Source: Magnetococcales bacterium
Lineage (GTDB): Bacteria; Pseudomonadota; Magnetococcia; Magnetococcales; Magnetaquicoccaceae
Assembly (NCBI GenBank): GCA_015234115.1
Contig: JADFWP010000021.1
Coordinates: 1 to 42,202, forward strand
Reading direction: 5' to 3'
Length of the DNA: 42,202 nucleotides
The notes below the pieces were generated by a model, which searched no databases, was not told the DNA's origin, and worked only from the letters and a program-made list of their open reading frames with translations. Below, in pieces: positions 17,794-28,288 of this stretch; the stretch's first letter is position 1; each line of letters begins with the position of its first letter. The translations under genes and the position numbers were made by a program.

Positions 17794-17844
17794 AAGATGG
17801 TGGGCAGTATAGGATTTGAACCTATGACCCCTACCGTGTCAAGG
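17794..17844 (-). other. attL: displaced 3' half of tRNA-Val
   Basis: Identical over 51 bp to 28238-28288, covering the CCA end, T-arm, variable loop and anticodon loop on the minus strand. Identity stops abruptly at 17845. It cannot fold as a tRNA alone. Confidence 0.95.
17798..17844 (-). pseudogene. Partial tRNA-Val(GAC), 3' fragment
   Basis: The tRNA part of attL: it has CCA, acceptor 3' strand, T-arm and anticodon GAC but lacks the D-arm and 5' acceptor strand. It is the original host 3' end, cut off by integration. Confidence 0.9.
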
Positions 17845-17948
17845 AGTTCACCTCTTCGTTTTTCCATTGATTTCAATCAGATCAAGAGGATTGAGTGATA
17901 TAAAATATCCACTAAATCCACATGCCGTTATCGCAATCATCGTTATAG

Positions 17949-17966
17949 TGGATCATTCTTGGATCA
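17949..17966 (+). repeat. Paired TGGATCA sites near attL
   Basis: TGGATCA at 17949-17955 and 17960-17966, 11-bp period, about 105 bp inside the left end. The same pair with the same period is at 28155-28172 near the right end. They fit arm-type integrase or excisionase binding sites. Confidence 0.6.
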
Positions 17967-18066
17967 CCCCGGCAGAAGCGTCAACTTGTCGGCATCGCCA
18001 AAAGACCAACACCGCCCACGGTCACTGCTTGTCAAATCCGATTGCCTGTACGTTCCATCCTCATCA

Positions 18067-19041
18067 TCAAGAACGTCCCTGGATCCTCGCCAGTTGAGCG
18101 GAAGCCCCACGACGGGCCATCAATTTTTCCGTATAGCGGGCAACCATGACCGGGCTTTTCCAGCCACCTGCTTGCATCACCCCTGCGATTTCCAGACCAG
18201 CGGACACCATGTCTTGTGCAGCACCGACTCGGCAGGAGTGGCCGGAGATTCCTTCCGCATCCGCGCCGGTCAAGGCTGCCATCCGCTTGAACGCCCGCGC
18301 AACCCCCTTATCGCTCAACCGCTCTTCCATCGCGTTCGCGTTGTTGATCCCCCGAAACATGGCACCCTGCTGGATCTTGGCAATCTTCATCCACTTCTTC
18401 ACCCGCTCTACCGTGTCCGGGGCGATGAACCGCACAGCCCCGGCCCCTTCCTGATCGCTCTTGCTGCGCCGGATCAGCACAGTGCCAGATCCATCCTCGC
18501 AAAAAGTGAAGTCGGCAACATCCAGGGCGGCCAACTCCGAGCGACGACACAGCACGTCATACCCCACCAACACCAACGCCAAATCCCGCAAGTCTCGGAA
18601 GGTGCCACGGTCCGACTCCAGCATTTCGTTGACCAACCGCCGGTTGATCGGGGCGGCCTGTGTCTGTCTGGTTCCTTTTTCCCGGCTCATCTTCTTCAGG
18701 GTCAGGCGAACCGGCATGGAGCGGGTAGGACTCTCCAACCCGGCAGCTTGGTGATAGGTGGAGATGCTGGAGACGTAACGACGAATGGTGGCTGGCGCAC
18801 AATGAGTGGCCATGGCATCCACAAAAGCGGCCACCGTTTCAGGCGTGGAGGGCAGACTGGCCATTCCGCATTGTGCGCAGAATTCCACGAACCGCGTGAT
18901 GTCCGCCCGAATCGCCCGTTCCGTGTTCTTGGCCAGGGCACCGCGTGCATAGCGGTCGAACTCTGCCAACCGGGCAAGAATGGCGTTCTGATCGGCAATG
19001 GCCGTAGTGGCGATGGTAACGGGGATGGTGGTATCGATCAT
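18067..19041 (-). CDS. Tyrosine site-specific recombinase
   Basis: A 324-aa member of the tyrosine recombinase family, distinct from the element's integrase. The N-terminal SAM-like DNA-binding domain (about 25-120, AKNTERAIRADITRFVEFC) is followed by the catalytic domain: first Arg in VLCRRSELAAL, H-x-x-R as HSCR, Trp in GGWKSP, and the nucleophile Tyr in MVARYTEKL. The ATG chosen follows GGAAGGAAAG; an upstream in-frame ATG at 19098 lies inside a palindrome. It points outward at the left end and shares no operon. The palindrome at its 5' end suggests that it acts locally, for example resolving multimers as TnpI/XerC-like enzymes do. This is an inference. Confidence 0.88.
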   Translation of the reverse strand: MIDTTIPVTIATTAIADQNAILARLAEFDRYARGALAKNTERAIRADITRFVEFCAQCGMASLPSTPETVAAFVDAMATHCAPATIRRYVSSISTYHQAAGLESPTRSMPVRLTLKKMSREKGTRQTQAAPINRRLVNEMLESDRGTFRDLRDLALVLVGYDVLCRRSELAALDVADFTFCEDGSGTVLIRRSKSDQEGAGAVRFIAPDTVERVKKWMKIAKIQQGAMFRGINNANAMEERLSDKGVARAFKRMAALTGADAEGISGHSCRVGAAQDMVSAGLEIAGVMQAGGWKSPVMVARYTEKLMARRGASAQLARIQGRS

Positions 19042-19071
19042 GGTCTTTCCTTCCGAATGGGTTCTTATATG

Positions 19072-19097
19072 TGTCCGATAGCTGTAATTATCGGACA
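19072..19097. promoter_or_regulatory. Palindromic site upstream of the recombinase gene
   Basis: TGTCCGATA (19072-19080), 8-bp centre, TATCGGACA (19089-19097). The 9-bp perfect arms around an 8-bp spacer have the geometry of a tyrosine-recombinase core site (lox/dif type). It could equally be an operator or part of the promoter region. Confidence 0.55.
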
Positions 19098-19377
19098 TAC
19101 TTTTACCCCGTTTTCACGTCGAATGCAAGCCCTTTTAACCCCGCTTGTCGCCCCCCTCATTGACCGGCCACAAACCCAAGCGGGACAAGCGTTCCAGGGG
19201 ATTTACCAGGGGAGGGTTCTGCGCCTGCGATTCGCCTTCCTTGCACACCTGGAGGAAACGGCGAGCCGGGAAAGAAAAAAGCAAGCGCGCGAAACATTCA
19301 GGAAATTTATTTGGCAATAAACTCAGCAAATAGAACGGGGAAAAAAATCTCACGCACGACACACACACGAAAATTGA

Positions 19378-26815: not shown

Positions 26816-27247
26816 ATGGACGAACCCATAATACTCACAACGGGCGAAGTGTCTAAAATGTTGAGAATGTCCAGACAAAGCGTTCTGAATGCTATTGAAA
26901 AGAAAGGACTTCCGGCCGTAATATCGAGCAATCCAGGAGTAAAACGCAGAACAATATTTTTTGTGCGCGATCAGTTGTTATTGTGGATTGCAAGTAAAAC
27001 CGTGAATGCATCCACCACCCATGAACCGCAACCTGTTATCTCCGAGAGTGCACCATGCCGGTTTACAAACGCCCCAACTCCCCATTCTGGTACATTGCGT
27101 TCACAGACGCAAACGGTCAAAGAATTAAACGATCGTCTGGGACAACTGACAAAAGGGAAGCGGAAGCCCTTGAAGGAAAATGGAAGCACGATGTCCACCA
27201 GCAGCGCATGTGGGGCGTCCAACCCCAAAGGAGCTTTGACGACTTGA
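26816..27247 (+). CDS. Excisionase-like HTH protein
   Basis: 143 aa. Residues 5-60 are a winged helix-turn-helix of the MerR/excisionase type (LTTGEVSKMLRMSRQSVLNA, then RRTIFFVRDQLLLWI). GGAGAC precedes the ATG. The last 64 codons (from 27055) overlap the integrase gene in another frame; this tail is Ser/Thr/Lys-rich and may be tolerated by-product. Next to the integrase it probably directs excision, bending DNA at the paired sites near the ends. Confidence 0.75.
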   Translation: MDEPIILTTGEVSKMLRMSRQSVLNAIEKKGLPAVISSNPGVKRRTIFFVRDQLLLWIASKTVNASTTHEPQPVISESAPCRFTNAPTPHSGTLRSQTQTVKELNDRLGQLTKGKRKPLKENGSTMSTSSACGASNPKGALTT

Positions 27248-28125
27248 TGTTAGAGTTCATCAAAAATCGCCCTCTTGAAAAGTTAGACGGGTCAGAGAAA
27301 TATCATATCAAACATTTCTTACGCTACTTTTCCGGGAGGAATCTGAACGAACTAAAGGGCGTGGATGTGCGCCGGTACGCGGCGTCACGGCAGGAGGCTG
27401 GAATCAAACCCGCCACCGTCAACCGGGAGTTGAACACTCTGTCAAGAGCCTACAATTGGGCGAGACAGCACTTGGAATGGGAGATCGTCAACCCGGTGGA
27501 AGGGAATAAACTGCCAGAACCGGAAGGACGAGTAAGGTGGTTGACACCGGAAGAACAGACGACCATGTTGGGTCTGGCACGCCAGCACCACCACGCGCCG
27601 CACTTGGTTGATTTCCTGATCCTGGCCCTGAACACCGCATGCCGTTCTGGGGAGTTGATGGGTTTGGAATGGGAGCGGGTAGATTTCGACAACAACTTGA
27701 TTTACCTGGAGGCGCAGCACACCAAGACCAGGAAAAGACGTTCAATCCCGATCAATAACGCCGCCACAGAGGCACTTGTCAGCCGCGCTCACTTCCGGGC
27801 CACTCATTGCCCATCTTCGCCATGGGTGTTTGCCCACAAAAATGGGGAACGCATCCAGTCAGTCAGGACTTCGTTTTCGTTCATTTGCAGAAAGATGGGC
27901 ATCAAGAATTTCCACATCCACGACCTACGCCACACGGTTGCATCCCGGATGGTTCAATCCGGTGTTGCCTTGCCAGTGGTAGGAAACGCCTTGGGCCATC
28001 GCTCCATCCGCTCTACGGAACGCTATGCCCACTTGGCCCCAGAACAAATCCGAGATGCCTTTGCAACGCTGGAGGCGACGACGACAAAGGCAAGCCGGGA
28101 AAACGAAAAATCAGAGACCCGTTGA
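27055..28125 (+). CDS. int: Phage-type tyrosine integrase
   Basis: 356 aa. N-terminal arm-binding domain (MPVYKRPNSPFWYIAFTDAN), core-binding domain (about 60-150), and catalytic domain with Arg in NTACRSGELMGLEW, HDLRHTVASRM, GHRSIRS and the nucleophile Tyr in TERYAHLAP. Complete. It sits 112 bp from attR, reading toward the tRNA, and is the enzyme expected to have inserted the element. The gene overlaps the Xis-like gene by 193 bp, so the two are likely made from one transcript. Confidence 0.95.
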   Translation: MPVYKRPNSPFWYIAFTDANGQRIKRSSGTTDKREAEALEGKWKHDVHQQRMWGVQPQRSFDDLMLEFIKNRPLEKLDGSEKYHIKHFLRYFSGRNLNELKGVDVRRYAASRQEAGIKPATVNRELNTLSRAYNWARQHLEWEIVNPVEGNKLPEPEGRVRWLTPEEQTTMLGLARQHHHAPHLVDFLILALNTACRSGELMGLEWERVDFDNNLIYLEAQHTKTRKRRSIPINNAATEALVSRAHFRATHCPSSPWVFAHKNGERIQSVRTSFSFICRKMGIKNFHIHDLRHTVASRMVQSGVALPVVGNALGHRSIRSTERYAHLAPEQIRDAFATLEATTTKASRENEKSETR

Positions 28126-28154
28126 GGCGGTTTCAGAATCCCAGGGGAGGAATG

Positions 28155-28172
28155 TGGATCAAAAATGGATCA
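28155..28172 (+). repeat. Paired TGGATCA sites near attR
   Basis: TGGATCA at 28155-28161 and 28166-28172, period 11, matching the pair at 17949-17966. Located between the integrase stop and the terminator, 65 bp inside the right end. Confidence 0.6.
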
Positions 28173-28182
28173 CAGGATACGC

Positions 28183-28223
28183 ACAAACAAAAAGCGGTCA
28201 GCCAGGAAACAGGCTAACCGCTT
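28183..28223. terminator. Terminator at right end of the element
   Basis: AAGCGGT-C-AGCC pairs with GGCT-A-ACCGCTT. On the minus strand it is followed by TTTTTGTTTG, so the element supplies a new terminator for the tRNA it repairs; on the plus strand it also ends the integrase transcript. Confidence 0.85.
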
Positions 28224-28237
28224 GATTTTGAATCAGA

Positions 28238-28288
28238 AAGATGGTGGGCAGTATAGGATTTGAACCTATGACCCCTACCGTGTCAAGG
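28238..28288 (-). other. attR: core repeat completing tRNA-Val
   Basis: Right copy of the 51-bp direct repeat; identical to 17794-17844. It covers the 3' half of the intact tRNA through the anticodon loop, the usual crossover place for integrases of this type. Confidence 0.95.

Follow-up and report, generated by a model that had tools for sequence, protein, structure and literature searches.

Why would a small integrated element carry genes for DNA packaging and no recognisable one for a capsid? This question is raised by an element with a unit length of 10,444 bp in the genome of a Magnetococcales bacterium, lying in a stretch of 42,202 nucleotides (contig JADFWP010000021.1) that we call the window. 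A preliminary description, made from the sequence alone, had noted a primase-helicase and terminase genes between direct repeats and had proposed a new satellite lineage. As it had reported, no capsid, portal, protease, tail or lysis gene was recognised in Pfam and PHROG scans of the window; apart from the terminase, no head, tail or lysis family was matched by any of its genes. The element is mobile and integrated, and its set of virion genes is incomplete. We consider it probable that it is an integrative phage satellite, which brings its own complete packaging motor and borrows the rest of the virion. The proposal of a new lineage stood in part: the same core occurs in 7 of 48 genomes of the class with no virion gene recognised, but the split large terminase is not peculiar to the element.

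The element is integrated at a tRNA-Val gene

The element is bounded by 51-nt repeats that are 100% identical, and its integrase gene lies beside the right one, as previously described.

17794 to 17844: left attachment site (attL), 51-bp repeat, distal copy of the 3′ half of tRNA-Val (repeat search and empty-site comparison)
28238 to 28288: right attachment site (attR), 51-bp repeat within tRNA-Val(GAC) (repeat and tRNA searches)
28242 to 28316, minus strand: tRNA-Val(GAC), whose 3′ half is the right repeat copy
27055 to 28125, plus strand: integrase (tyrosine recombinase; PF00589, 3.9e-33)
26816 to 27247, plus strand: excisionase-like helix-turn-helix protein (phrog_2907, 1.6e-8; HTH_17, 2.1e-7), its 3′ end overlapping the integrase gene

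In four genomes of the same genus, a single repeat copy joins matches to the right and left flanks (G030:C21, G031:C10, G033:C55 and G034:C143). The right-flank match exceeds 500 bp in these genomes. The left-flank match extends only about 41-113 bp beyond the repeat, and left-flank-like sequence is also found 3′ of other tRNA genes (for example, on G000:C106 of the window's own genome). Comparing these sequences, we find it well supported that the four junctions represent unoccupied integration sites, the left half of the argument being the weaker. Outside the element, a palindromic repeat of about 130 bp (28959-29094) recurs at 25 other places in the window's genome among the rows listed, and also in same-genus genomes.

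A large terminase encoded by two genes

The core of the element is a run of plus-strand genes with the following assignments.

21689 to 24280, plus strand: primase-helicase (CHC2 and Toprim; phrog_5629, 1.4e-75)
24875 to 25354, plus strand: putative small terminase (TerS-like)
25341 to 26087, plus strand: large terminase (TerL) ATPase subunit (Terminase_6N, 1.7e-11; phrog_7579, 7e-61)
26108 to 26791, plus strand: TerL nuclease subunit (phrog_27743, "unknown function", 1.9e-40; Terminase_6C, 0.01, below the cut-off)

Family scans confirmed the primase-helicase. Comparing the ATPase family profile with solved structures, we obtained matches to TerL ATPases (4zni, 5.2e-17, and T4 gp17). All 18 ATPases share the Walker A residues, the Walker B Asp-Glu pair, and the coupling-motif Ser and Pro without exception. 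The Terminase_6C score of the nuclease was below the Pfam cut-off; therefore, we examined this protein further by profile and structure. A profile of 29 nuclease sequences matched solved TerL nuclease domains (5m1f and 5tge, 2.5e-13). The AlphaFold model (mean pLDDT, the predicted local confidence, 85.6) gave T4 gp17 as its best Foldseek match (4.5e-6); lower-ranked matches included further terminase nucleases as well as RuvC-like resolvases. By eye, the Asp of GLDLGQ and that of a VDxTG-like motif are kept in 6 of 6 available element nucleases. Because the ATPase and the nuclease both match solved terminases and their key residues are conserved, both halves are judged to be present, as a complete large terminase predicted from two genes.

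The small terminase is less certain than TerL. It had no PHROG match at 0.1, its sole Pfam match was BLOC1_2 at 0.0064, below the cut-off, and its predicted model had no Foldseek match at 0.001. In its favour, Meiothermus phage MMP17 has a homologue immediately ahead of its TerL gene, an invariant CxxCxH start is common to 20 TerS-like sequences, and the predicted fold has short helices first and then a long helical hairpin. Structure predictions covered 25 of the 29 nuclease rows and 15 of the 20 TerS rows. By position, homology and predicted fold we assign the gene as TerS, which leaves the earlier identification plausible and short of a family match.

Comparing the window element with that of G025, we found ratios of nonsynonymous to synonymous change (pN/pS) of 0.23 for the ATPase, 0.46 for the nuclease, 0.43 for TerS, 0.39 for the primase and 0.38 for a second recombinase gene (rec2), with no stop codons; these values are rough, as synonymous divergence is near saturation.

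In five loci found elsewhere (L016, L017, L018, L021 and L022), a single TerL ATPase gene is accompanied by two to four copies of the nuclease gene. By eye, some copies of this set have altered catalytic Asp positions, for example VNxTG in place of VDxTG, as if catalytic and structural subunits had parted.

The same core occurs in sister elements

We searched the 48 class genomes with the TerL ATPase and obtained matches in nine, seven strong and two weak. The weak ones (G031 and G002) are Mu-like prophages with a one-gene TerL, the G002 match adjoining a Mu portal. All seven strong matches lie in elements whose core runs primase, small protein, TerS, TerL ATPase, TerL nuclease, integrase, rec2 being minus-strand and at the far side of the core, as far as the contigs reach (the G025 contig ends ahead of the integrase, that of G036 past the ATPase gene). 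The preliminary description had called for a search for such an ordered set at tRNA genes, and the integrase does adjoin a tRNA gene in 5 of the 7 (Val, Asn, Glu, Phe and Ser). rec2 is present in six, cut by the contig end in one of these (G006), and was not found on the G005 contig. The element of G044 has a perfect 50-bp repeat; no long attachment-site repeat was found for G039, G005 or G006, the G006 contig being without its left end. The regulatory half differs from element to element. Where BLAST aligns them, the sister integrases are only about 25-31% alike to that of the window while the core is kept; therefore, the packaging cassette has been retained as the targeting gene changed.

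Primase relatives at E≤1e-30 were found in 7 of the 48 genomes, six of them within these elements. In a PHROG scan of 42 selected open reading frames (ORFs) from the six sister elements, no head or tail family stood among the 25 most frequent of 73 matched families, which comprised repressors, regulators, antirepressors, late activators, toxin-antitoxin proteins and unknowns. Scanning the 10 least explained sister ORFs directly, we obtained two repressor-like proteins, one phosphoadenosine phosphosulfate (PAPS) reductase, one family of unknown function and six ORFs with no match. No portal, protease or major capsid gene was recognised in the window genes or, within the scope of these two scans, in the sister ORFs. 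The data support that the element belongs to a lineage with a common core in other hosts and no capsid recognised among the class relatives searched.

Capsid or tail genes in relatives, or decayed terminases, had been named beforehand as findings that would speak for a shrunken prophage, a decaying phage from which the head, tail and lysis genes have gone. No head or tail family stood among those listed for the relatives, and between the window and G025 no decay of TerL was seen. Genes for TerS, TerL, integrase, primase and antirepressor are all found in prophages, and a prophage-like region of about 38 kb (G008:C4; L105, L107, L108) has a related integrase (51% identical to that of the G005 element), a repressor, a primase (27-30%) and Bro-N; viral contigs with the same split TerL and a portal also exist. 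Yet seven of the 48 genomes repeat this reduced core and its order, with divergent integrases and insertion at different tRNA genes, and the genes compared between the window and G025 are intact and constrained. By eye, the G008 region has a 538-amino acid (aa) ORF in the TerL position beside a 471-aa ORF in the portal position, an arrangement that we count against this reading. Decayed genes and irregular loss between copies, as in a defective prophage, were not seen, the G039 primase in two frames being noted. We regard decay from a prophage as unlikely.

Several points weigh against the satellite reading. Particles, excised circles and transfer are predictions from the sequence. The virion-gene negative in the sister elements extends to the 25 most frequent of 73 matched families, and contigs of metagenome-assembled genomes may conceal missing parts of elements. 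In G036 the primase is of another family (phrog_1139), and Bro-N and Mor are found past rec2; the element's end was not located there, and both genes are possibly outside it. The G039 primase is split over two frames.

A covarying RNA leader precedes the Bro-N gene

The regulatory half of the window element contains a repeat cluster, a leader and an antirepressor gene.

19377 to 19720: iteron cluster of G+C-rich direct and inverted repeats (repeat search), probable replication origin
19880 to 20185, plus strand: C4-type antisense RNA leader (alignment and covariation)
19926 to 19935 and 19951 to 19958: 5′ segments of the leader
20101 to 20121: middle antisense segment
20137 to 20146 and 20175 to 20181: 3′ target copies at the ribosome-binding site
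20191 to 20688, plus strand: Bro-N antirepressor (PF02498, 6.9e-20; phrog_130, 1.9e-21)

C4 RNAs of phages P1 and P22 form two alternative pairings. The leader DNA upstream of Bro-N is conserved, with 37 matches in 24 of the 48 class genomes. Among 30 fetched leader loci, nine have a Bro-N gene (two loci overlap) and eight have a Mor gene within 1.5 kb. We aligned 25 of the 37 matches; L128 to L132 were left out as short, seven hits had no locus, and L138 was kept and is unaligned past its middle. Across the 25 sequences, two 5′ segments, a complementary middle segment and two 3′ copies located at the ribosome-binding site covary. In the alignment, 96.7% of cells form the 5′ pairing, with 73 two-sided changes compared with a shuffled mean of 20.9; none of 500 shuffles scored as high, and slid versions reached at most 13. 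For the alternative 3′ pairing, the figures are 84.9% of cells paired and 59 two-sided changes versus 19.4 in shuffles; again 0 of 500 shuffles were as high and slid versions reached at most 19, the number of pairs with a two-sided change being equalled by 5 of 500 shuffles. The two pairings are mutually exclusive. By eye, more than a dozen distinct 5′ segments occur among the 25 sequences. The RNA control region of the preliminary description is borne out by covariation far above the controls, and we read the leader from its sequence as a C4-type antisense RNA region, with segments complementary to the antirepressor's ribosome-binding region.

The C4 antisense RNA is described as controlling the antirepressor of phage P1 (PMC8201110), and the likeness is that of an antisense RNA over an antirepressor; the difference is that our leader has no Rfam C4 match. 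The Rfam C4 model gave no match at its gathering score, and no C4 stood among 35 permissive matches. These 35, obtained on window positions 19100-20300, were all below gathering and mostly microRNA models in G+C-rich repeats, and we set them aside.

The iteron copies lie partly at 11-, 20- and 21-bp spacing. Similar repeats, spaced by 20 or 21 bp between rec2 and the primase operon, were found in 4 of the 5 sister elements searched (L003, L056, L058 and L059) and not in the L055 stretch, L054 being outside this search. The iterons, the primase and rec2 point to autonomous replication, as would fit a plasmid-like integrative element whose terminase processes its own DNA (for example, cutting replication concatemers) and never meets a capsid. 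One relative, L153, has motor genes together with a tyrosine recombinase and a ParA-like ORF. Against this, a full ATPase translocase and TerS are kept as one cassette, and resolution would need the nuclease only. We find a plasmid-like nature quite unlikely.

Mu-like phages as candidate helpers

A satellite would need a helper, and a Mu-like phage is our leading guess from the sequences. A same-genus prophage (G030:C56) is Mu-like, with portal, gp7 and tail genes, and it has the same leader, Bro-N and a Mor relative. Because this prophage shares the leader and Bro-N module with the elements, and some sister elements carry Mor, a Mu-like helper is favoured. Mor domains above the Pfam cut-off were found in G006, in G044 (inside its repeats) and in G036 (beside rec2); weaker signals are a weak match in G039 and an N-terminal fragment in G025. 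The 5′ segments are the same in the leader beside rec2 in G036 and in that of a G032 locus carrying Mor. A Mu-like phage is documented as the helper of PmCI172, a phage-inducible chromosomal island (PICI) (PMC6092414).

Other results speak against this guess. The window element has no Mor match, and that of G005 is weak (0.0016). Mu-type portals (PF06074) occur in 4 of 7 carrier genomes versus 29 of 41 others, which is no association. The preliminary description had proposed looking for helper prophages with matching capsid genes in the same strain. No helper with a cognate portal was found: PF04860 portals and PF10124 Mu capsids, the types searched in this respect, occur in 0 of 7 carriers. 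Nor was a phage with a closely matching TerL found in these hosts, every strong TerL-ATPase match, seven in the 48 class genomes, lying in one of the elements. We also dropped the Mu portal of the window's genome as a sign of a helper, since by eye it stands alone. It lies at G000:C95:28956-29954, between CbiA-like and Sel1-repeat-like genes (by eye), and frames of similar length are found in many relatives.

Elsewhere in the window's genome are a tape-measure gene, on a 6-kb contig (G000:C17), and, on a different contig, a Mor gene. The tape-measure gene would suit a two-part prophage, with the capsid genes elsewhere in the same genome and no outside helper; the lack of PF04860 portals and PF10124 capsids in all seven carriers, in a search limited to these types, stands against it. 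We consider such a two-part arrangement very improbable.

Comparison with known satellites and a proposed cycle

PICIs, including the pathogenicity islands of Staphylococcus aureus (SaPIs) and Gram-negative PICIs, resemble the element in being small and integrated, with an integrase, an excision protein, a primase and an origin (here suggested by the iterons). PICIs sometimes carry TerS, the sole terminase gene named for them in the accessible text. The element differs in having a complete two-gene TerL, so its large terminase would not come from the helper as theirs does, and in its regulator, Bro-N with a C4-type RNA. The master regulator of PICIs is of AlpA or Stl type. The element's Xis-like protein matches HTH_17 and a PHROG of excisionase and regulator type that may include AlpA-like proteins; no Pfam AlpA match was listed, no dedicated search being made. 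Capsid-forming PICIs (cfPICIs) and the Streptomyces satellites MulchRoom and MiniFlayer are described as carrying TerS and TerL plus portal and major capsid genes (PMC10690885). TerS and TerL are common to these and the element, whereas the portal and capsid genes are theirs, none being recognised in the element.

P4 is packaged by its helper's terminase, and its Sid protein reshapes capsids (PMC10690885). P4-like satellites, which have Sid, Psu, Delta and the helper's cos and carry no terminase genes, share with the element an integrase and a primase-helicase; unlike them, the element has its own TerS-like gene and TerL, and neither Sid nor Psu was matched by Pfam or PHROG. P4 delta is a late activator, and the Mor of some sister elements may parallel it. 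Tycheposons and virion-encapsidated integrative mobile elements (VEIMEs) are marine satellites that integrate at tRNA genes via a tyrosine recombinase, and some carry packaging genes. In a limited open-access set of papers, as far as their accessible text goes (including PMC11389934, PMC10690885 and PMC6092414, with the tycheposon/VEIME papers outside the set), no capsid-less satellite with its own large terminase is described.

On the satellite reading, the cycle would run as follows. The integrase and the Xis-like protein would move the element into and out of tRNA-Val. In the resident state, the C4-type leader, whose pairing is seen in covariation, would pair over the Bro-N ribosome-binding site and keep it silent, until a helper phage or stress tips the balance. 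The primase-helicase would then copy the element from the iteron origin. TerS would mark the element DNA, and the two-subunit TerL would cut it and pump it through the portal of the helper's empty capsid.

Of the satellites compared here, some rely on the large terminase of the helper, and the others come with both motor and capsid. If the satellite reading is true, a complete motor without a capsid separates the two and offers a direct test of how a terminase fits a foreign portal. The natural split of ATPase and nuclease provides a simple two-protein motor for in vitro work, and the readable specificity segments of the covarying leader could predict satellite-prophage communication.

Split terminases beyond the class

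The two-piece TerL had been put forward as distinctive of the element. It is not; the split is widespread among a large set of viral contigs, and a portal match is present in some. In the viral contigs L025 and L031, the same split TerL is followed by a portal and other head genes, the L031 ATPase frame being interrupted. We classified 118 loci: 30 have a one-gene TerL, 11 have no nuclease found, and 77 have separate ATPase and nuclease frames. In the 3.2 kb downstream of these 77, we found an integrase in 9, a large ORF in 41 and neither in 10, and the contig was too short in 17. The large-ORF ("portal-like") class takes in loci that have no integrase in this 3.2-kb span and do have a same-strand ORF of at least 380 aa; 10 of the 41 match portals by BLAST, including the references L025 and L031, and the class is not all phages (L006 has a tape measure, L005 an unfinished ORF). 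The nine integrase loci are the window, G005, G006, G039, G044, Bacillota L004, Chloroflexi L010 and the viral contigs L022 and L153; in G039 and G044 the 3.2-kb span holds a large ORF too.

As viral contigs share the split together with a portal, we dropped split TerL as a mark of satellites; from these comparisons, the split terminase is judged to predate the element. Many viral contigs have a split TerL followed by a portal or other large gene where the element has an integrase; the element therefore has the appearance of a phage packaging module that was severed downstream of the terminase and fused to an integrase.

We built a TerL ATPase tree of 42 rows, which leaves out L019, L021 (two hits), L041, L042, L095 and, with its interrupted ATPase frame, L031. 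The window and G025 group with Bacillota L004 (support 96/91), and the other five Magnetococcales elements stand beside methanogen elements (80/89, weak). The seven elements are at two places in the tree, and the well-supported branches alone are compatible with one origin. The packaging cassette has likely been exchanged between distant hosts. Tentatively, and without leaning towards it, we suggest that motor-only satellites could form a class of mobile elements spread over several bacterial phyla and possibly methanogenic archaea. They would have a TerS/split-TerL cassette with no portal, often an integrase in the portal's place, and would load their own DNA into foreign capsids; in Magnetococcales they would be tied to Mu-like phages through shared C4-type immunity and, in some, their own Mor.

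Among the methanogen loci, L006:288-16760 (Methanomicrobiales) is an archaeal element at tRNA-Phe with a 17-bp repeat, an integrase, a primase, TerS and split TerL. It also has a tape-measure protein (2.6e-119), and no portal stood among the families listed; the methanogen-locus scan took in 43 ORFs and the best 25 of 36 families. In L022, a tape-measure-like gene adjoins TerS, and in L008 a head-protease-like gene lies downstream of TerL. L153 (IMG/VR, 15,218 bp) has primase-like ORFs, TerS, split TerL, the tyrosine recombinase and the ParA-like ORF, the last recognised from its translation; by eye, with no family scan made, no capsid gene was recognised in it.

Other genes of the elements

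The remaining genes of the window element are listed below.

18067 to 19098, minus strand: rec2, second tyrosine recombinase (PF00589, 1.9e-16)
20806 to 21651, plus strand: hypothetical protein, 281 aa, with a homologue in G025 (L003)
24298 to 24549, plus strand: small conserved protein, 83 aa
24556 to 24867, plus strand: paralogue of the 83-aa protein, 103 aa, 36% identity

The 281-aa protein matched no family in Pfam, PHROGs or PADLOC. Of six window proteins submitted to PADLOC, only the primase matched, to the DnaG-like model associated with defence-associated reverse transcriptases (DRT; 1e-23) and to RT_UG29 (9.8e-13); we read these matches as primase-domain similarity. The small proteins upstream of TerS (window 24298-24867; L003, L056 and L059) have a common C-terminal ending like RPxxIPxxxWxxF, and they are possible candidates for a helper-facing factor.

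Cargo of the sister elements includes HigBA-like toxin-antitoxin genes and a PAPS-reductase-like gene (L058:4771-5355, L003:3459-4040 and L054:7072-8052). rec2 was dropped as a marker of elements, its relatives being solitary in other chromosomes; in two other genomes, they stand alone with the same adjoining gene (L099:7684-8691 and L100:7626-8639). On the short contig G035:C50 (L106), a TerS relative (25%) adjoins a rec2 relative (35%).

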